Assembly: GCA_000320605.2 (NCBI GenBank)
Contig: KB445793.1
Span: 632,556 to 696,555, forward strand
Direction: 5' to 3'
Length of the DNA: 64,000 nt
Source: Gelatoporia subvermispora B
Lineage: Eukaryota; Basidiomycota; Agaricomycetes; Polyporales; Gelatoporiaceae
The notes beneath the pieces were generated by a model that worked only from the letters and a program-made list of their open reading frames with translations, was not told the DNA's origin and searched no databases. This document shows positions 20,047 to 33,998 of the stretch, piece after piece. Made by a program: the position numbers and the translations under genes. Every line of letters begins with the position of its first letter. Position 1 is the stretch's first letter.

Positions 20047-21455
20047 CTACCCTAATTGCGCAAGCCCGTCACGAATGTACTCCTCGAACAGAGCCTTGTA
20101 ATCGGCGTGCCACCTACTGAGTGCAGGACGACCCTCTGCGACGTCGCCTGCACCCCACATTATACGAAGCTGGTCGAGCTCGGCGCTTGTATCGTTGTCC
20201 GGGCAGATGATGTAGAACTTGCCCTGGCGGACGCGGTCGAGCTGATCGAAGGTTCAGAGTCAGTAAAAGTGCCATTAAGGTGTCATCAAGTGCGACTGGG
20301 TGGATATACGCGTGCGACATACCATGAACAAGACTGTTTCTTGCGGAGTCCAAGCGCCAGCTGGCTTCTCCTTACCGCTCGACGCGCCAGTCAAACCAGT
20401 CCAAACCCAGCCGGGACTACAAAAGGGAACGGTAAGTGAACCGGTGTAGTGTGCGAGCGAGATATGACGCACACTAGAAGATGGGCGGTCAAGTTTGCCG
20501 AAGGAGTGTTGCGAAGCTCATGCGCGAGGCCCTCAGTGAGGGACTTGACAGCTGCTTTTGAGGCATTGTACGCTGCATTACCGCTGTGCACTTGTCAGGG
20601 CACGGTCAAGAGATTGCAGCAGGATAACTCACGGGGGGTTGGTGATGCCCTGCTTGGAACCAGTGTTGATGATGACAGCCTGGTTCTCCTGGTGCAACAT
20701 CGAAGGCACGAAAGTGTGCTGAACGTTCACAATACTGAATACGAATATTGAATGGCACTGCCACCGCGCATATAGTCGAGTGCAACTTACCCAAACAGAT
20801 TGACATCGAAGATCTTGTGCCAGTTGTCCAGGCCATCCCATGACGTGCCCTTGATACCGATGCCGGCGTTGTTCATGAGCACTCCGACCTGCAGAGCCGC
20901 GCAGAACGTATGGGAAGGTCATACACGCGCACAGCGCGGAAGTAGCAGCAGCGGCAACGAGCATGAGTGACGCGCGCAGTCGTCTCGCCCGGCGGGCTGC
21001 TCACCTCGCCCCACGCCTCGTACACCCGGTCGCGCAGCCGGACCACCTCCTCGAGCTTGCTCACGTCCGTCGGGATGGCGAGCACGTTCGCATCGCCAAC
21101 GATTGCCGCGACCTCGTCTCGTGCAGAGTTCAGCTGCGCTTCGCTCACGTCCGCGAGGGCGACCTTCATGCCGATCCTACGTGTAGAGGAGTCATAGCGG
21201 ACGCAAAGAGTCAATCGGGGCTGATCAGCGCTGGCCGTGGATGTCCAATACGTTCCGGCGCACTCACTTGGCAAATTCAAGCGCAGCAGCGCGTCCGATG
21301 CCGCTTGCAGCACCGGTGATCACTGCGACACGTCCTTCATGGATGACGGGGTGCACGTCCTTGTCCATCGTCGGCGCGAGGGGGTTTTCGAATGCGAAAG
21401 ATGAGTTGGGTCGCAAAGGCGAAGGTCGGCGACGGCCGTTGAGATTGAGAGACAT
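20047..21455 (-). CDS. Short-chain dehydrogenase/reductase (SDR)
   Basis: A classical Rossmann-fold NAD(P)-dependent oxidoreductase; substrate unknown. Seven exons splice in frame to 319 residues: 21455-21268, 21176-21005, 20888-20791, 20734-20633, 20583-20473, 20416-20323 and 20241-20047. The cofactor-binding motif is VAVITGAASGIGRAAALEFA. VGVLMNNAGIGIKG carries the NNAG motif. IINTGSKQG supplies the catalytic Ser and YNASKAAVKSL the Tyr-Lys pair. The C-terminal part reads FYIICPDNDTSAELDQLRIM. The initiator is the ATG of MSLNLNGRRRPS. It lies 5 kb from the peptide-precursor gene and could be a tailoring enzyme, but nothing in the sequence ties it to that locus. Confidence 0.92.
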
Positions 21456-24468: not shown

Positions 24469-25113
24469 CCTGATATGCGAGACGGGGGGGCAAGGCGCAC
24501 ACTACCGCAAAGCCAAGTGGACATACTGGCTTGCGGGGTGGATAAGCAGAGTCGACACGCGGGTTGACGGCACCCTCGGTCGATAAGCAAACATGTTCTC
24601 AAGCTTGTGCGAATTGAATTCGCTGCGGCGCGCGCACGGGGTCTCCTGTCTGTGAAGTCATCCTCGGGGTTCCCACTCTTCCCGGCCACGTTGCGCTATA
24701 CATCTTGATTGACTTGGCGCTACAAGGCTCCAAACTATATTTATGTGGGCCGCCCGGTTCTCAATGATTGCGGCGTTCATCGTCTTGTCAGCTCTTCGCT
24801 TGGACATAACGACTTGGTTGGCTACGACTTCACAAGAAGCTTGTATGGGCCCGGCTATCTGCGGGGTGGCCATGTACCCCAGAGTCACTCATGTCAAGCA
24901 GTATCGGCCAAGAATGGTGCTGTCATAACAATAACAAGATACATAATCTCCAAGCCCGACGACCAGTACAAAAGGAATACAATCACAACTTGTGGCGTCA
25001 ATCTCTTCCAGAACACACCCATTGATCATCGCAAGAATCAGGAAGTACACCTGAATCGGAGCGCAGAATCAGCGGCGGAGCACAATGACCGCGCGGGTTG
25101 ACGCACCGTATGC
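24469..25113 (-). other. Intergenic, with a possible decayed transporter fragment
   Basis: Read on the minus strand just past the stop of the repeat protein, a frame runs VYFLILAMINGCVLEEIDAT and then SCDCIPFVLVVGL before hitting stops. It is hydrophobic and loosely resembles the VWLVIVLAAICGLLGF region of the adjacent permease. If real, it is a relic of a permease duplicate. Alternatively it is simply the 3' region of the precursor gene. A splice from the last repeat exon at 25119 to 25047 is also possible and would change only the last few residues (SECTS in place of SE). Confidence 0.25.
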
Positions 25114-26346
25114 TTACTCGGAAACCTCCTGGTGGACGTTGTTCGCAAAGAGCGCGCCCGCGGTCGGCTCTGGGATTGCAATAAGCTACCGCCTTCTCCA
25201 TGTGGTGCACAACTCACCGTCCGCGCGCTCAGCAATCTTCTGGTGGACATGCTCTGCAAAGAGTGGGGCAGATTTCGCGGCTGTGTTCTTGGTTACTAGG
25301 ACGAAAACTGGTTTATTGAAGTCACATACCGTCTGCGCGCTCAGCAACCTCCTGGTGAACGTTGCTCGCAAAGAGCGCACCGGGGGTCGGCTCTGGAATT
25401 GCAATTAGCTACCGGCCTCTCTATGCAGTGTACAACTCACCGTCAGCGCGCTCAGCAATCTTCTGGTGGACATGCTCTGCAAAGAGTGGGGCAGATTTCG
25501 CGGCTGTATTCTGGGTTACTAGGCGGCGGAAACTGGAATCTTAAGTCACATACCGTCTGCGCGCTCAGCAACCTTCTGGTGAACGTTGTCCGCGAAGAGA
25601 GCACCGGGCGTCGGTTCTAGATTCTTGGTCAAAGGACAGTCACAGGTAATATCGGGGCTGCGTACCATCTGCGCGCTCAGAAACTTCCTGGTGCACATTA
25701 TGGGAGAAGAGAGCACCAGGCGTCGGTTCTGTGAAGAATTCAGCCTCCGTCTGTGTCTATACCAGACTCGCTGACCATCCTCGCGCTCGGTTATCTCTTG
25801 GTGGACACTGCCTGCGAAGAGACCACCGGGCGTGGGTTCTGGACAACGCACTCGGCACCGGTACTCTAGTAAACTTCGGACGATTACCCACCATCAGCTC
25901 GTTCAGCGATCTTCTGGTGCTCAGTGGGCGCGAAGAGCCTGTTGCTGTCGCGCTTCTCGGCAACTTCCTGGTGCACGTTGTTCGCGAAGAGTGCACCCGG
26001 AGTAGGATCTACGTCGATGTGGCAAGGATATGAGAATGAATGCCGGCTGCACCCTGCATTGTCAACTTACCGTCCGATCTGGGCACCTTCACTACCTGGT
26101 GGACGTTGTCTGCAAAGAGCGCGCCGGGCGTCGGAGCTAACCATGCTATTTAACAGGGTACGCTATGCCCGAACAAGGCGGAATACTCACTGTCATCGCG
26201 GCGCACTGATATATTGCCAAAGATGAGGAGGTGAGTGGGCGTTCGGGCTCATGCTACGGTGACAGATACTGACATGGAACCACCGCGCAGCTTCCAACCA
26301 CAGCCAAAGCAAGTACGGCGAGGATAGCGGACAGCCTAGCGTACAT
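25114..26346 (-). CDS. Secreted tandem-repeat protein, candidate RiPP precursor A
   Basis: Eleven exons splice in frame to 244 residues: 26346-26274, 26205-26191, 26136-26071, 26008-25892, 25838-25776, 25728-25666, 25616-25554, 25518-25441, 25392-25330, 25295-25218 and 25169-25114. Exon 1 is a signal peptide (MYARLSAILAVLALAVVGSC, then AVVP). Exon 2 is a 15-base microexon giving LRRDD, a dibasic Kex2-like site. Each later exon encodes one repeat close to TPGALFADNVHQEVAERAD; exon 4 carries two, the second starting RLFAPTEHQ after AEKR. Two exons encode a variant with NTAAKSAPLFAEHVHQK. LF and, four residues on, VH are nearly invariant, and an Arg recurs at the end of each full repeat. All ten introns are phase 1. 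Resemblance to UstA-type precursors, together with the divergent UstYa gene, suggests peptides are cut out and modified. A structural cell-wall protein is the alternative. Confidence 0.82.
25218..25616. repeat. 223 bp near-identical tandem duplication inside precursor A
   Basis: The block around 25169-25392 (one TAAKSAPLF exon, one TPGALF exon and their introns) is repeated with a 223-base offset in 25392-25616, with few differences, introns included. The TPGALF-type units starting at 25169, 25392 and 25616 are spaced 223 and 224 bases apart. High intron identity points to a recent exon-pair duplication within an older repeat array. Confidence 0.8.
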
Positions 26347-27745
26347 CTTTTACGGAATGTGAGGGGATTGGAAGGTGACCCTTATACTCTGGATGGACCC
26401 TTCGAACGTTCTGGTATAAAAGGGTTTCCTGCATGCTTCTTTTGTCTACCGGGGAGTGACATAACGGGGGCTATGACTTACACACATGCTCCTCCACTGC
26501 GTATGTCGTTCAATCTGCACGGCGCTCTGAATAGAACTTCGACATCCGCATTTGTTCTGATGATCACGAGTGTCTTGAGCGGCTTAGGATCAGATGTCCT
26601 GTCTTGGTATAGCCTCCATGAGAAGATGTTACAGCGCCCCAAAGCTCCCGAGTCGGGCAGCTGCATGCTTATCCCCATTCACAAGGCGGGCGTAAAGGGA
26701 GAAGCATACGCACCTAGAAGAGAGCTTAGGCGAGGGCTCGGAGCTCGCCTATGGGAGGCCTGACATCAGAAAATCCTCGTGGACGCCACGATGGAAGGAG
26801 GGATTGCGGCTAGGCTAAATGCCACTGCCACACGGACATCCTGCGGCGCGCTGTCCGACAACGAGATAGAAGCGTACCGGCGCATGTGATCGCGCGCGGA
26901 TGATAGCACTTCAAATGTCTCACCCTCGAAACATGACGGGAGATGGACGGGTCAGTGGCGACTTTCGCATCTATTCGCAGTCATTCAGGTGCAGCGCGCC
27001 ACTGCATGGAATGTCGACCCATTGGAAACCTGTATCTGTTGCGATCAGCTCGTTCCTAAGTTGACATAGTTGCGCTGGATGCCAACACAAATCGCGGCGG
27101 TGACACTGGCCGCAGTGGGGTTCCGAGGGGCCACTAAAAACGGCGAGCAAATATCAGACAAACATGGTCCTGTGACGCAGTTACGCAGCGCATTAGGAAA
27201 CTTGATCAGTCCTTTGGACCTTTCTTGCTCCGGATGGGCAAATCTTCAGGCGTGACCAAGTTCGCCTCCGAGAACCACGCGCCCATGTCGAACGCAAGAG
27301 GTGCATGATGGGAGAAGTTGTGCCAGATGAAAGACAGTGAGCCCGGCCGGGAGCAGTTCTATCATGTTCGGGTTCACTGTTTTACTCTCAGCCGTATCGC
27401 CTTCAGCGGAGGCATTTTCGGTTTGACACATGGCCTTCCAAGGAGTGTCGATTCCCTCGAGGGTTTCGGAGGTTTAAGGGGGGCTGTTCGGTGGCATGCA
27501 GAGACCGTTTGCAGAGCAATTGGTAAGGAGATGGAAGGAAGACAAATTTCACGAAAGCAGCGATGCGCGCGAGATGCGTGGGCAATCCGGTCCTTAGGAT
27601 AGGCGCTGAGAATTCCTTCTGTACCGCCATCATGGCACCTTTTTGTCTCGATGATTCACATCCGGATTGTCTTCTGACCATTCCCTGCATCTAACAGGAA
27701 CTCTAGTGAAGCCATACTCGGTCTCAGAGTACCACGTAACCTACA
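26347..27745. promoter_or_regulatory. 1.4 kb divergent promoter region between precursor A and the UstYa gene
   Basis: The precursor (minus) and the UstYa-like oxidase (plus) start at opposite ends of this stretch, so it must contain both promoters. In precursor orientation a TATA-like agtataaggg occurs about 35-45 bases before the ATG (26381-26390 on the plus strand reads cccttatact). No gene is supported in between; plus-strand frames at 26359-26763 and 27318-27602 have no recognisable content. Confidence 0.5.
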
Positions 27746-28396
27746 ATGCTGCCCTCCCAGTCGACTCTGTCCTCAAGATTTGTCTTGGGCTGCATAGCCG
27801 CCCTCTCACTAGTCACCATATTCAATGTCGGCTTCACATGGTACAATATCGTGGTATTGAAGCAACTCATGCCTACCCAGCGTGACTACAGTACGTTCTG
27901 AGTCTCCTCATATCATGTAGCCTATCTTAAGTAGTGGGGCCCAGCATACATCGGCGACGACTGGCCCGCGCAGCTGCCCCTTCGCCTTCCGGAGGTGGGC
28001 CTTGTGCTCGAGAGCGGGGACGACCACTTTTCGCTGTACGACGACGAGGAGTGGGGCACACTCTTCCCCTCGGAGGGCTTCACGGATCTTGGCCCACGGA
28101 ACCGCACATTCCTTCTTTCCATGATCCACCAGATGCACTGTCTCGACGTTATACGCGTCGGCTTCGTTACCAACCGCACGGGCGCTGCGCACCATATCGA
28201 GCACTGCCTACGGTACCTCAGGCAGATGGTGCTCTGCTACGCCGACACGACGCTTGAGGACGACATGCCCGCGATTCTCGACGGCAAGTGGGAGCACGGC
28301 TCGAGCGGCGTGGGCAGTGTACACCGGTGTAGGGATTGGACGGTGTTGAGGAAGTATCTCTTGGAGTACCCTGCGTCAGATTATGTTCCCGAATAG
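27746..28396 (+). CDS. UstYa-like oxidase (DUF3328), candidate peptide cyclase
   Basis: Belongs to the UstYa/DUF3328 family, membrane-anchored oxidases that cyclise or hydroxylate ribosomal peptides in ustiloxin, asperipin and cyclochlorotine pathways. Two exons (27746-27890 and 27945-28396) splice to 198 residues. One N-terminal membrane helix covers about residues 13-33 (FVLGCIAALSLVTIFNVGF). The junction gives QRDYTYIGDDWPAQLPLRLP, typical of the family. Both diagnostic motifs are intact: HQMHC in SMIHQMHCLDVIR and HIEHC in AAHHIEHCLRYLRQMVLCYA. The end reads CRDWTVLRKYLLEYPASDYV. The acceptor at 27943-27944 was chosen because it alone keeps frame. Its divergent neighbour is the repeat-bearing secreted protein. 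Confidence 0.92.
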
Positions 28397-29701: not shown

Positions 29702-32362
29702 CTACGACAGGAAGTCCTCCGCGCGCACGCGGCGCACGTCGAGCGGGACCTGCGGCGTGTGACCGTCCCCGGCCGGGGGGTCGAGTACCGGGACCTGCAG
29801 CCCGTTCATCTTCCACCGGATCTGCTTCCTGTTCCCATGCTCGTCCGCGCCGGACGGGAGCGCAAAGTGCATCGTGCTAAGCAGCGTCGTGAGGATTTGC
29901 TCTGCGCAGTAAATGAGTTGTCAGCGTGAGCTCGGCGTTCTCAGCGGGAGACTAAGCGAGAGATGACACGCACTCATCTCCATCTCGGCAAACTTGAATC
30001 CGCTGTGAAAGCAGGCGGCATGTCAGTGCCAGCTACTACGACGAACAGAGAGTGGACGGGACGTACATGCACGCGCGGCCCCCGCCGAGGAAGGTCATCC
30101 TGTATCAACCAAGCCAGGAGTTGAAATAAACGATCAGATTTAGCCACTAGCCCAGAAGCCAGAAGCCAAGGATTCGTAGAGCGGGGCATCCCCGCTCGCA
30201 ATTCAAACGCAATAGGACATCATCCAAACATCGCACTTACATCGACGCATACACCCCGGGGTACTTGACGCCGTTCCTGTTGCCGGGCGCGCCCTCCGCA
30301 GGCGCGTCGCCTTCACGCACGACGCCGTCGCCGTCCTCGCCGATGCGGATGCGCTCGCCGGTCGGCGTGAGCCAACGCGCGGGGCGCCACTCGTCCGCGT
30401 CCGCGCCCCACACCTCCTTGTTGTGGTTCGCGGCCAGTATCGAGATGATCACGTTCGTGTTGGCGGGAAGCGCGATCTCGCTGATCATCGCGCCCGAGGC
30501 GGAGCGCACGGGGAACTGCAGCGGTAGCATCGTGTCCTTGCGGGTCCTGCGCGCAATAATCGTTCAGTTGACTTTGTAACTCCGGTTCACAATTGCCCCT
30601 AGAGGGGGCAGGTGCGGAGGGGAGACATACGTGCGACTCATGAGTGACGTCGGCGGGTACACGCGCAGCGTCTCGCGTAGGATCGCGTCGAGGAAGGGCA
30701 GACCCATGAGCACGTCGTACGGGAGGTCCACGTCCTCCCAGCGCACGTCGCTCAGGCCCTGTGCCGCGGCGTACTCGCGCTTCGCCCGCCGGACTTCGCT
30801 GCGCAGCTGCGCCTGCACGGTCGGCTTCTCCGCGAGCAGGTACAGCGTGCGGCAGACTGCGATCGTAGTCGTCTCGAAGCCCGCGAAGATGATCGTGCTG
30901 GGTGCGGGGGGTTAGTGCGGCGCGGGCGGGCGCGAGGCGGGGGAGAGGGACGCACTTCACTTGCCCGAGAAGCTCCTCGTCCGTAAGACGGTCGGTGTCA
31001 TCCGAGGACGCGTTCGCCCTGACTATCAACCACATTCTCATCAGACTCTCGCTCCCCAACCTCAACGAGCAAACAACGCACGCATAATGGACATGATATC
31101 CTTCCCCCGCATCCTCTCGCCCAAATTGCCTCCACTACTGACCTCCCCACTCGTCGCAGCACCGTGTCCAAGCATCGCGGCCTTCTTCTCCGCGAAAATC
31201 TCGTGGCTGACGCGGTCCATGACGCGCACGATGCGGCGGAGCTCGTGCAGCTGTACCCGCAGCCGCGTAATGGGGAGGTACTCCACGAGCTGGTTGCGCA
31301 GGTGCAGCGAGAAGTTGCGCACAAAGAAGGGCACGAACGGGCGCAGGAGGATGATCGACAGCGCGGTGGGGCTATGTCAGACGGCGGAGTCGAGCGATTA
31401 GTTCGGATTGAGAGAGAGAGGAGGCCAAGGCGCACGAGAGATTCCGCACGGCCTTGGCGTACTCGTTTGTCTTGTCGGGCTCCAGCGCGTGGAAGGTGTA
31501 GCCCAAGTTAGCCTGGCAGACGTATTCGAGCGTGCCGCGGGACATCCACGGGACCAGGTCGATTTCATGAGGGTCTGGGGAGCGGTCATTTACAGTGCTA
31601 TTTTGTCGCTCTGAAGGATTCTGTACCTTCGCCTGGCGGGATCAAGCCCAACAGCACATCACGCATCTTATCGGCGATGGGTTGGATGACCGGTAATAGA
31701 TCCCGCATGTTCGCCAGAGAGAACACCGGGGTGAGCATCTTGCGCTGTTTCCTGTGTTGATCGCCTTCGGAGCATGGTTAGTAAGTCACGAAGAACTGCT
31801 TACAAAGATGTCATACCTAGAGTCGAAATTAAACCTTCGCCGAAGATGAGCTTGTTGCCCCTAGCAGAGTATATGCGTCAATATCCTTCTCCGCAGCAAC
31901 GACAGAGTTCGTCATTACAGGATAAACATGTCGGTCTCCTCGAATATGTGTTGCTCTTTGACTACGATGTTATGCAACGCTCGCGGGTCCGACACATAGA
32001 GTTGTAGTGTCTATCGCCCCAGGAATGAGCACTGTGTCATCCTATTTTCGGAATACAACTCGACTTACACCAAGCAAGCCATGGATCTTCACTGCGCCGC
32101 CGTACTTCTCGGCCAGCTGAAGGTTGTAATCCCATCCATCCTGGAAGATCCTATGGTAATTCCCTGTACACAATCGACACAGTCCGTATGAGCCACCAGA
32201 TCCGACGCCACAAAGGATCCAAATCCAAAGACCTTTCAGCCAATGCTCCTTCTCCGGGCCCGCTACATCCTCGAGCGGGTTTCGTGGGCGCGTCAATCTC
32301 CTGAACAGCTTCCAGAGAACGAGCGCCAAGAATCCAGTGCCAGAAAGTTGAAGCAGCGACAT
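29702..32362 (-). CDS. Cytochrome P450 monooxygenase
   Basis: A membrane-bound heme monooxygenase of roughly 550-570 residues in about a dozen exons. The N terminus MSLLQLSGTGFLALVLWKLF is a membrane anchor. Downstream are NYHRIFQDGWDYNLQLAEKY, LIFGEGLISTLGDQHRKQRK and MLTPVFSLANMRDLLPVIQP. The I-helix is AGFETTTIAVCRTLYLLAEK, the ExxR region ILRETLRVYPPTSLMSRT and the heme loop FLGGGRACIGFKFAEMEI, with the Cys ligand. It ends VRAEDFLS. An insertion rich in acidic and small residues (about IRIGEDGDGVVREGDAPAE) precedes the heme loop. It is convergent with the UstYa-like gene and is a natural candidate tailoring enzyme for the same product, though this is inference. Confidence 0.93.
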
Positions 32363-33998
32363 GCTGTCTAAGTCGGGCTCACGCGAGAGCAGAGTGCAGA
32401 GATTGCAAAGTCCGGAGTGCGAACATGGACACGAAGACACTGCCAGCGAGTCCGAATGATAGCATCATTCCAGACTGTGATGCTTGTAAAAGAGCCTGAC
32501 AAGGCGGGTTCGCTGGGAGCTGCCATATGCCTCCGTGCGCAGCGCGATAAGCGGCGCGCAGGCGCCTGCTTGCTCAATGCGTGCCTCTGCACGTCTAAGA
32601 CGAGGACGAGGGACTCGTGATGGACGTGCTCATTGTCCCCGACATCAGTCAACGGGCATACATCGCATGTGCAGATTGCTTTCAAAAAGTGTCGGTGGAC
32701 TTGCGGCGGGCTTGTGTGGTCCTGGAAAACAGGCAGACAAACCGGGAGCAATTCGCGTGGGAAGCGGAGGTCACGTGCCGCATCTGAATGCGCGGAAAGA
32801 GAATCACCGGAGCGATTTCGAATAAGATTGAGGAGAAAACCCCCACGCACTTCACAACGATGTAAATTAAACGCCTACACTATACATTGCCGCCAAAAGA
32901 CAGGATGTAGTGTAGACAATCCGGGTTCTCGATACTTTTCAGCCACGTGTCTGCATGGCACGTGATGCGGTTTAAACGTCCCGTGCCGCCAAGTGAATAT
33001 GTTACAATTATTTACGTACCGTATTGTACCTCCCGAAAATGTTATATCCTACCCTAATTGCGAAAGCAGACTGCCTTGAGAATGTCTGCGACCAGCTGCT
33101 CGGGTTGACATATTTGCGTTTACGAACTCAAATTCTGGTCCCCTGGTCTCCCATGACTGTCCTTCTGCTAGGCAACAAACGTTCATCCTCCAGTGTGCCT
33201 GGCGGAGATCCCTCATGCATGCGTTCTAGAAAACCATAAGCGGCAAAACCCCATCATCTCCCTGAAGTCCGTCGACTCGACTGCTTGCAGCTGCTCACGG
33301 CTGTGAATATCGTGCTGCAGATCTGCCGGTAGTACGGTGCAATTGCGCATCAAGCTGATAGATGACTTGACGCGCCAGCGACCAGCCCAAGTCGCCATCA
33401 ACTAAGGAGATAGGACGTTGATTGCCCTCGGTGGACGGTCTCAGGACCCAGGTCAGGAAGCGCATGTCAGTGAATGCGCATCTCATGTTCTGTGCACGCG
33501 ATGCGGGCGGCAGAGCGGTTTTGCAAAAGAGATCACTGCTTCTCCGAACCCGGATCCACTTATACGAGCACCGCGGAGAGTGCACGAGGCAGCTCGACCC
33601 CGCGCGGAGATGACTGCAACCCCAGGCCTCCCGCGTCGCTTTCCTGCTGGATGACTTTGAGCGTTGGCCCTGAGCAGTGTCGGTGCCACGATGGCGTCGG
33701 CAAGCATGGAGGCGCACAGCGCATCGGAGATTGGGCCTGGGTGCATACGTCGGCGGCTGAGGGCGGCTACGCGGATCCCACCCGCATGCCTCAGCTGGCG
33801 CACATGGGAATTCGCAGATACGTTGGCGCTAGAACCGCTCGTCTGCCGGGCTGATTGGTCGAGTTTGGGAACATGTCAGTGGCCTGCAGGGCGCAGTACA
33901 TATGCGCCAGACTGCTGACTCCAGGAAGCGGCACGCCTTCCCCGGATTCTCTCGGTCTGCGCTCTTCCTTGACCTCTACGTCCCCCTCCTCGCTCAAG
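32363..33998. other. Intergenic; P450 promoter and unexplained minus-strand frames
   Basis: The first part is the promoter of the P450. At 33295-33803 overlapping minus-strand frames of 106-140 codons exist, but neither shows a domain and no splicing links them. I see no supportable gene. GC content is high around 33500-33800 and lower around 32850-33100. Confidence 0.35.

Follow-up and report, generated by a model that had tools for sequence, protein, structure and literature searches.

The closest described counterparts of the gene reported here are the KEPs, the dikaritins and the precursors of the alpha-pheromone type. KEPs begin with a signal-like stretch, followed by three or more near-identical short units with basic cleavage sites at KR, RR, KK or RK boundaries; they occur widely among fungi, also in Agaricomycetes (Le Marquer 2019, PMC6339444; Umemura 2020, PMC7329392; Vogt 2022, PMC9769878). 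In the parts of Umemura 2020 (PMC7329392) drawn on here, DUF3328 genes adjoin 22% of KEPs, with 30.1% (as printed) for ascomycetes and 103 of 1,680 (6.1%) for basidiomycetes, and are almost never found beside KEPs of the pheromone type. KEPs beside DUF3328 in basidiomycetes are therefore not new as such. The same paper posed the question whether cyclisation hardly occurs in basidiomycetes, and placed Gelatoporia within one widespread KEP type without DUF3328. Le Marquer 2019 (PMC6339444) described STE13 signatures as marks of signalling peptides, absent from cyclic-toxin and epichloecyclin precursors. When Coprinopsis KEPs were expressed in Pichia, products seemingly arose by single-Arg cleavage and STE13-type trimming, and four agaricomycetes yielded peptides that were linear or carried minimal modification (Vogt 2022, PMC9769878). 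All of these screens were run on predicted proteins (PMC7329392, PMC6339444, PMC9769878). Those of Umemura and Le Marquer demand repeated dibasic sites, whereas of the two methods of Vogt one, RADAR applied to proteins <300 aa with a signal peptide, does without them and was used for Coprinopsis only.

Dikaritins (ustiloxin, phomopsin, asperipin, victorin) are derived from multi-core secreted precursors cut at dibasic Kex2 sites, and their clusters contain a UstYa/DUF3328 gene with two HxxHC motifs (definition in PMC12048977). Tyr is not indispensable in these peptides, since victorin is cyclised through Phe (PMC9233826). As far as the cited sections of the reviews go, basidiomycete RiPPs are the amatoxins/phallotoxins and the borosins, dikaritins are ascomycete products and no basidiomycete dikaritin is named (PMC9233826, PMC12048977). 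Large UstYa families nevertheless persist in Agaricomycetes, with 16 genes in Pleurotus and 22 matches in the genome analysed here. Precursors of the alpha-pheromone type, basidiomycete ones too, carry X-P/X-A dipeptide spacers between the basic site and the core. No description of a fungal precursor with one core per exon was found in the open-licence literature, in the parts seen, which does not by itself show that none is in print.

Gene model and coding evidence

The window, a 64,000-nt stretch of Gelatoporia subvermispora B (C3:632556-696555 in the 37.7-Mb assembly), contains on its minus strand a gene running from an ATG at 26346-26344 to a TAA at 25116-25114. The model, which was built and then checked by script, comprises 11 exons and 10 introns, all of them GT-AG and in phase 1. 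Its coding sequence of 705 nt is in frame and open to the TAA, and encodes 234 aa. Exons 1 to 11 measure 73, 15, 66, 117, six times 63 and 56 nt, and introns 1 to 10 measure 68, 54, 62, 53, 47, 49, 50, 48, 49 and 48 nt (range 47-68). Retention of any of the ten introns leads to a frameshift or an in-frame stop. The features, in window positions, are:

26274..26346, minus: exon 1, start codon and signal-peptide-like stretch (MYARLSAILAVLALAVVGSCAVVP), the signal judged by eye
26191..26205, minus: exon 2, 15-nt micro-exon giving LRRDD (dibasic RR), the least certain exon
26071..26136, minus: exon 3, unit 1, core LFADNVHQVVKVP, ending in P-R
25892..26008, minus: exon 4, units 2 and 3 (LFANNVHQEVAE-KR, then DSNR/LFAPTEHQKIAE)
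25776..25838, minus: exon 5, unit 4 (LFAGSVHQEITE), 63 nt
25666..25728, minus: exon 6, unit 5 (LFSHNVHQEVSE), 63 nt
25554..25616, minus: exon 7, unit 6 (LFADNVHQKVAE), 63 nt
25441..25503, minus: exon 8, unit 7 (LFAEHVHQKIAE), 63 nt
25330..25392, minus: exon 9, unit 8 (LFASNVHQEVAE), 63 nt
25218..25280, minus: exon 10, unit 9 (LFAEHVHQKIAE), 63 nt
25114..25169, minus: exon 11, unit 10 (LFANNVHQEVSE) and a stop codon at the Arg position of the other units
25095..25113, minus: stretch behind the stop resembling a normal exon end and splice donor (GCATACG/GTGCGT); repeat family D1 copy 25096-25174, 77%

A first-pass annotation, made from the letters alone, had proposed these coordinates, the strand, eleven exons and phase-1 introns, all of which were borne out by the checked model. 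Its "about ten near-identical units" came to exactly ten. The statement that each exon carries one motif holds for eight of the nine unit-bearing exons, exon 4 carrying two units. The dibasic site that it mentioned is present as RR before unit 1, by way of micro-exon 2, and exon 4 contains a second one, KR. The model is weakest at exon 2, which is flanked upstream by intron 1 (GTCAGT...CAG) and downstream by the donor GTGAGT; the frame survives its skipping, and the first dibasic site hangs on it. Less common donor types are used by introns 1 (GTCAGT), 5 (GTCAGC) and 6 (GTACGC). The N-terminus was judged by eye to be hydrophobic and signal-like.

The repeats stand out at the DNA level independently of the gene model. 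In a scan for peptide repeats over 20 sequences (the window and 19 further stretches of this genome) the array ranked second by copy number, below a Pro/Ala-rich low-complexity run and above its own antisense reading. Pooled over the ten units (13 codons, 45 non-independent pairs), pN was 0.197 and pS 0.615. The nine distinct units differ from their consensus by 27 amino-acid changes, compared with 43.2 +- 3.1 in a neutral simulation, and none of 5000 runs gave a number as low. When all six frames were compared over 12 codons, the annotated frame had the fewest amino-acid changes relative to neutrality (z -4.8) and stops in none of the nine distinct units; the best antisense frame reached z -2.4 with stops in two of the nine. 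By this test an antisense reading with repeats of the WWTLFAKSAPGVGS type on the plus strand was rejected. The units are thus constrained as protein, clearly so only in the annotated frame, and the array is a real, constrained and apparently unannotated gene.

Identity among the six 63-nt exons ranges from 62 to 98% over 15 pairs. The introns following them are mostly diverged, 9 of the 15 pairs lying within 0.07 of shuffled sequence. Those following exons 7 and 9 are 80% identical, however, and those following exons 8 and 10 83%, so exons 9-10 and their introns seem to have been copied recently from exons 7-8 and theirs; the copy also shows at the DNA level, as a 223-nt repeat. Copy number would have grown as exon-plus-intron blocks were duplicated in tandem; the symmetry of the exons (phase 1-1, 63 nt) makes such duplication neutral for the frame. 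Behind the stop, what looks like a former exon end with its donor is still legible; the stretch at 25095-25113 is thus likely the relic of a full repeat exon, as unit 10 probably once was. No decayed extra exons scoring above shuffles were detected upstream or downstream of the array.

Predicted cores, spacers and cleavage sites

The unit layout was derived by a notional cut of the protein after every Arg. After removal of the terminal basic residue, the core is of the type LFAxNVHQxVAE and has 12 residues in nine of the ten units, unit 1 having 13. L1, F2, H7 and Q8 are invariant, and A3, V6 and E12 occur in 9/10. The earlier statement that the units keep LF and VH therefore holds in full for LF (10/10); VH is found in nine units only, and it is HQ that occurs in all ten. 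What had been named as the "VHQ or ALF segments" is better read as one 12-residue core, LF...E. Neither Tyr nor Trp occurs in the cores, the single Tyr of the protein being in the signal stretch. Dikaritin products have a cross-linked aromatic side chain, and the cores have an invariant Phe.

All nine internal unit boundaries have an Arg, and eight of them are non-dibasic (seven Glu-Arg, one Pro-Arg); the only dibasic sites are the RR before unit 1 and the KR between units 2 and 3. Glu-Arg is a poor kexin site. In each of the nine units that have a spacer, this is made of eight residues, or four dipeptides, and is followed by LF. The first dipeptide (AD, DD, SD or ED) has D as its second residue in 9/9 cases and is never X-P or X-A (0/9). 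In dipeptides 2-4, on the other hand, P or A occupies 24 of 27 second positions versus 4 of 27 first positions, or 19 of 21 versus 2 of 21 when only the seven distinct spacers are counted. With each spacer shuffled separately, a procedure that ignores common descent, this STE13-like pattern was reached in none of 20,000 runs. Under a common permutation of the columns it was reached in 36 of 720 (5%), so that the pattern is suggestive, not decisive, once common ancestry is respected.

Two units deviate from the layout. In unit 3 the spacer is missing and LF follows Arg immediately (DSNR/LFAPTEHQKIAE). The last residues of unit 10 are ...VSE, with the stop codon where the others have Arg; seven others have Glu-Arg there. 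With core boundaries LF...E and a stripped spacer, the predicted peptides would be of the type LFADNVHQKVAE, with which units 3 and 10 agree.

Like the KEPs, the precursor combines a signal-like start with more than the three near-identical short units required and with basic sites, its ten tandem units exceeding the requirement of Umemura 2020 for at least three tandem repeats of at least 8 aa. Its units do not lie between KR, KK, RK or RR, and since eight of the nine internal boundaries are single-Arg it falls outside both the Umemura and the Le Marquer definition. Unlike KEPs it has most of its units on separate symmetrical exons, and within the lengths searched it is apparently unannotated. 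With the dikaritins it shares the multi-core secreted precursor and the adjacent UstYa/DUF3328 gene with two HxxHC motifs; it differs in its 12-residue cores without Tyr, its STE13-like spacers, its basidiomycete host and its dibasic sites, found at two places only. From precursors of the alpha-pheromone type, whose X-P/X-A spacer between basic site and core it resembles, it is set apart by the X-D first dipeptide, the lack of Trp, the mostly single-Arg sites and the UstYa neighbour. By its predicted layout the precursor works like a KEP and, the dibasic sites demanded of KEPs and dikaritins being largely missing, it is filed under neither.

The UstYa-family neighbour and searches for relatives

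The first-pass annotation had pointed to DUF3328 genes, and a UstYa/DUF3328 gene with both HxxHC motifs indeed adjoins the precursor head to head at 1,399 bp. The features on this side are:

26347..27745, no strand: divergent intergenic region between precursor and UstYa gene, 1,399 bp
27746..27890, plus: UstYa-family gene, exon 1, N-terminal helix (AlphaFold model), probable membrane anchor
27945..28396, plus: UstYa-family gene, exon 2, with HQMHC and HIEHC
29702..32400, minus: cytochrome P450 gene, approximate limits, heme-binding loop near 30092; Pfam matches on ORFs 30567-30911 and 30240-30563

The neighbour scored 67.1 and 63.2 bits against PF11807 (curated cut-off 25), which places it in the UstYa family, and by location and motifs the locus has the UstYa gene expected of a dikaritin cluster (PMC12048977). 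Over 198 aa it matches CERSUDRAFT_111944 (Gelatoporia subvermispora B) without a single difference, in agreement with the splice model used here. Relatives were found in many Agaricomycetes, including Taiwanofungus, Grifola, Neolentinus, Heliocybe and Boletales. When 53 of the 119 relatives were aligned, H110, H113, C114, H132 and C136 were invariant and H135 was present in at least 90%. The AlphaFold model (mean pLDDT 72.2, pTM 0.57) has a long helix at residues 10-41 and is otherwise of modest confidence. No solved relative was found by sequence at E up to 1, and Foldseek of the model against the PDB gave no match at E up to 0.001.

The genome has 22 UstYa matches. A neighbour this close would be expected by chance with a probability of about 0.003 (22 x 4.7 kb / 37.7 Mb), an arithmetic done after the neighbour was known. 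In the matched part, 13 of the 22 have two HxxHC motifs and nine have no exact motif. The latter carry variants such as HQLRC, HQLYC and HQFQC, which suggests that the non-canonical subgroup in this genome is large.

For the other neighbours a Pfam survey covered 196 of the 231 ORFs of at least 75 aa starting at 6-46 kb (102/117 and 94/114), together with single ORFs; short exons can escape it. Besides one UstYa and one P450 it revealed no tyrosinase, peptidase or methyltransferase domain in the ORFs scanned (196/231, 6-46 kb). Other matches included NOT2/3/5, Rpb4, glutamate dehydrogenase, GH20 and an amino-acid permease. An ORF resembling short-chain dehydrogenases (20876-21319) stayed below the curated cut-off. 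The P450 gene lies between the UstYa gene and the housekeeping genes to the right, and its link to the peptide is a guess.

Relatives of the precursor itself were sought in a protein database, among proteins of 0.55-1.75 times the query length sharing exact words. Scoring of the 7,996 candidates with the most words in common gave none at E up to 1, and a 126-aa piece gave 11 candidates with none at E up to 10. The same database does hold fungal proteins, as shown by the identical entry for the UstYa neighbour, and the precursor nonetheless had no match there within these limits. An Endotoxin_C2 Pfam match of the precursor (E 0.03; 15.4 bits, cut-off 30.7) was taken as chance. In the genome there were no same-family copies elsewhere, all nine matches at E up to 10 being its own exons. 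Exon-per-unit precursors were likewise not found beside other UstYa genes in 18 stretches (eight other UstYa places) and 7 kb of the C25 group; the rest of that group was covered for 1.5 kb on either side of each match, and precursors of one or two units would escape.

Proposed processing, alternatives and a second precursor

That the gene encodes a multi-copy precursor of a 12-residue secreted peptide, processed in some way, is by our estimate from its sequence quite probable. It would enter the secretory pathway and be cut after Arg by a kexin-type protease, at the two dibasic sites and otherwise at Glu-Arg (7) and Pro-Arg (1). A carboxypeptidase would trim the basic end, and a STE13-type dipeptidyl aminopeptidase would help to strip the X-P/X-A spacer. 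Because the first dipeptide (AD, DD, SD, ED) is no STE13 substrate, the trimming would need another step. Up to ten peptides of about 12 residues could be released in this way. The membrane-anchored UstYa protein may then oxidise or cross-link the core, most likely at the invariant Phe and at His/Gln, a step less certain than the cleavages. One match to the kexin P-domain and, at one place, three matches to DPPIV_N were found in the genome. As agaricomycetes are said to have three kex2 genes (PMC9769878), this machinery search is incomplete.

We give about even chances to the reading in which the gene is a KEP-like multi-copy secreted peptide precursor not covered by the KEP definition in print, its product perhaps being oxidised by the UstYa next door, and that UstYa acts on the precursor at all is itself roughly a toss-up. 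The gene model, the constraint on the protein, the regularity of cores and spacers, the single-Arg cleavage and STE13-type trimming that seem to occur with agaricomycete precursors (PMC9769878) and the adjacent UstYa with both HxxHC motifs speak for it; the mostly Glu-Arg boundaries, the X-D first dipeptide, the lack of Tyr and Trp and the small number of enzyme domains in the ORFs scanned speak against it, as does the wide spread of the UstYa relatives in Agaricomycetes, whereas that database, for the lengths covered, gave none for the precursor. Several of the same observations fit a linear pheromone- or hormone-like precursor, processed identically to LFAxNVHQxVAE and left unmodified, with UstYa as an unrelated neighbour. 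The STE13-like spacers, tied to signalling peptides and absent from cyclic-toxin precursors (PMC6339444), the minimally modified peptides recovered by peptidomics from four agaricomycetes (PMC9769878), the cores without Tyr and the sheer size of the UstYa family in the genome all agree with it. It leaves unexplained the head-to-head UstYa gene at 1.4 kb with intact HxxHC motifs (chance about 0.003, computed after the fact), and pheromone-type KEPs are almost never beside DUF3328 (Umemura 2020, PMC7329392). We regard this linear reading as a tentative possibility.

An unprocessed secreted repeat protein of the wall, of adhesion or of surface activity would have ALF...AERAD as a short helix, EPTPG as a turn and Arg as a plain helix residue. 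The eight non-dibasic boundaries out of nine and the regular 21-residue period of exons 5-10 are compatible with this. In Ustilago, the peptides that come from the repeat precursor Rep1 form fibrils and remain on the hyphae, though Rep1 is processed. The helical hydrophobic moment of the cores was not above that of shuffled sequences (P 0.14-0.26, four cores), and an amphipathic helix reading of the cores was rejected. Arg is kept at all nine internal boundaries in spite of differing neighbours (KR, PR, ER), unit 3 drops its entire spacer yet has Arg before LF, and unit 10 stops just before Arg. An unprocessed protein is accordingly rather unlikely. Much less likely still is an effector with repeat domains that leaves the cell uncut, similar to the SP7 family known from mycorrhizal fungi: the signal-like start and tandem repeats are shared, and SP7-like genes have a conserved intron before the first repeat (PMC11333574), but there is the UstYa neighbour, and the host is not mycorrhizal. 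Gelatoporia subvermispora is a white-rot wood decayer. Just as improbable is a chance or decayed array without protein product, for which the absence from the protein database within the length ranges searched might be cited; ten consistent pairs of splice sites, a single frame and strong constraint are hard to reconcile with it.

Returning to the KEP-like precursor with a possible UstYa modification, the first-pass annotation had called the gene a candidate basidiomycete RiPP precursor. A multi-copy secreted precursor beside a DUF3328/UstYa gene has stood up, a classical dikaritin has not (few dibasic sites, no core Tyr, STE13-like spacers), and modification is something that we infer; the RiPP label is taken here as a hypothesis. 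What is new is the way in which one basidiomycete locus combines nearly one core per exon with single-Arg sites, STE13-like spacers and an adjacent UstYa gene. The wider proposal, a UstYa-modified, dikaritin-like peptide of a basidiomycete whose cores are symmetrical exons, representing a class of single-Arg-cut precursors missed by dibasic-based mining, we consider doubtful. If it is true, exon duplication, and possibly alternative splicing, would alter the number and mix of cores with the frame untouched. The locus offers one agaricomycete UstYa a concrete candidate substrate and exact predicted peptides. Such substrates may have been missed for two possible reasons, their single-Arg sites and the placing of cores on 63-nt exons that gene finders may drop.

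A second putative precursor, of more classical appearance, was noticed on the plus strand at C5:363909-364127 (L054; L042:3909-4127), with one match in the genome. It has three units, RRD(D/N)EAEFDPNINSGW..., in which FDPNINSGW(F/I)... segments are split by RRD(D/N)EAE, and lies 3.2 and 4.4 kb from two UstYa matches. Like the exon-built precursor it shows the succession of basic site, acidic dipeptide (DD/DN), X-A and core with UstYa matches nearby; it differs in its dibasic RR sites, its three units on one exon and its unrelated core (FDPNINSGW...). As it came to light only through a look at the surroundings of UstYa genes, it is no test of the UstYa association. The same contig has two UstYa pairs, L009/L018 and L013/L017, and the 20 kb covered around the second pair showed no repeat precursor. 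Tree branches between L009 and L013 and between L017 and L018 are very short, and the two pairs appear to be the products of a recent duplication.
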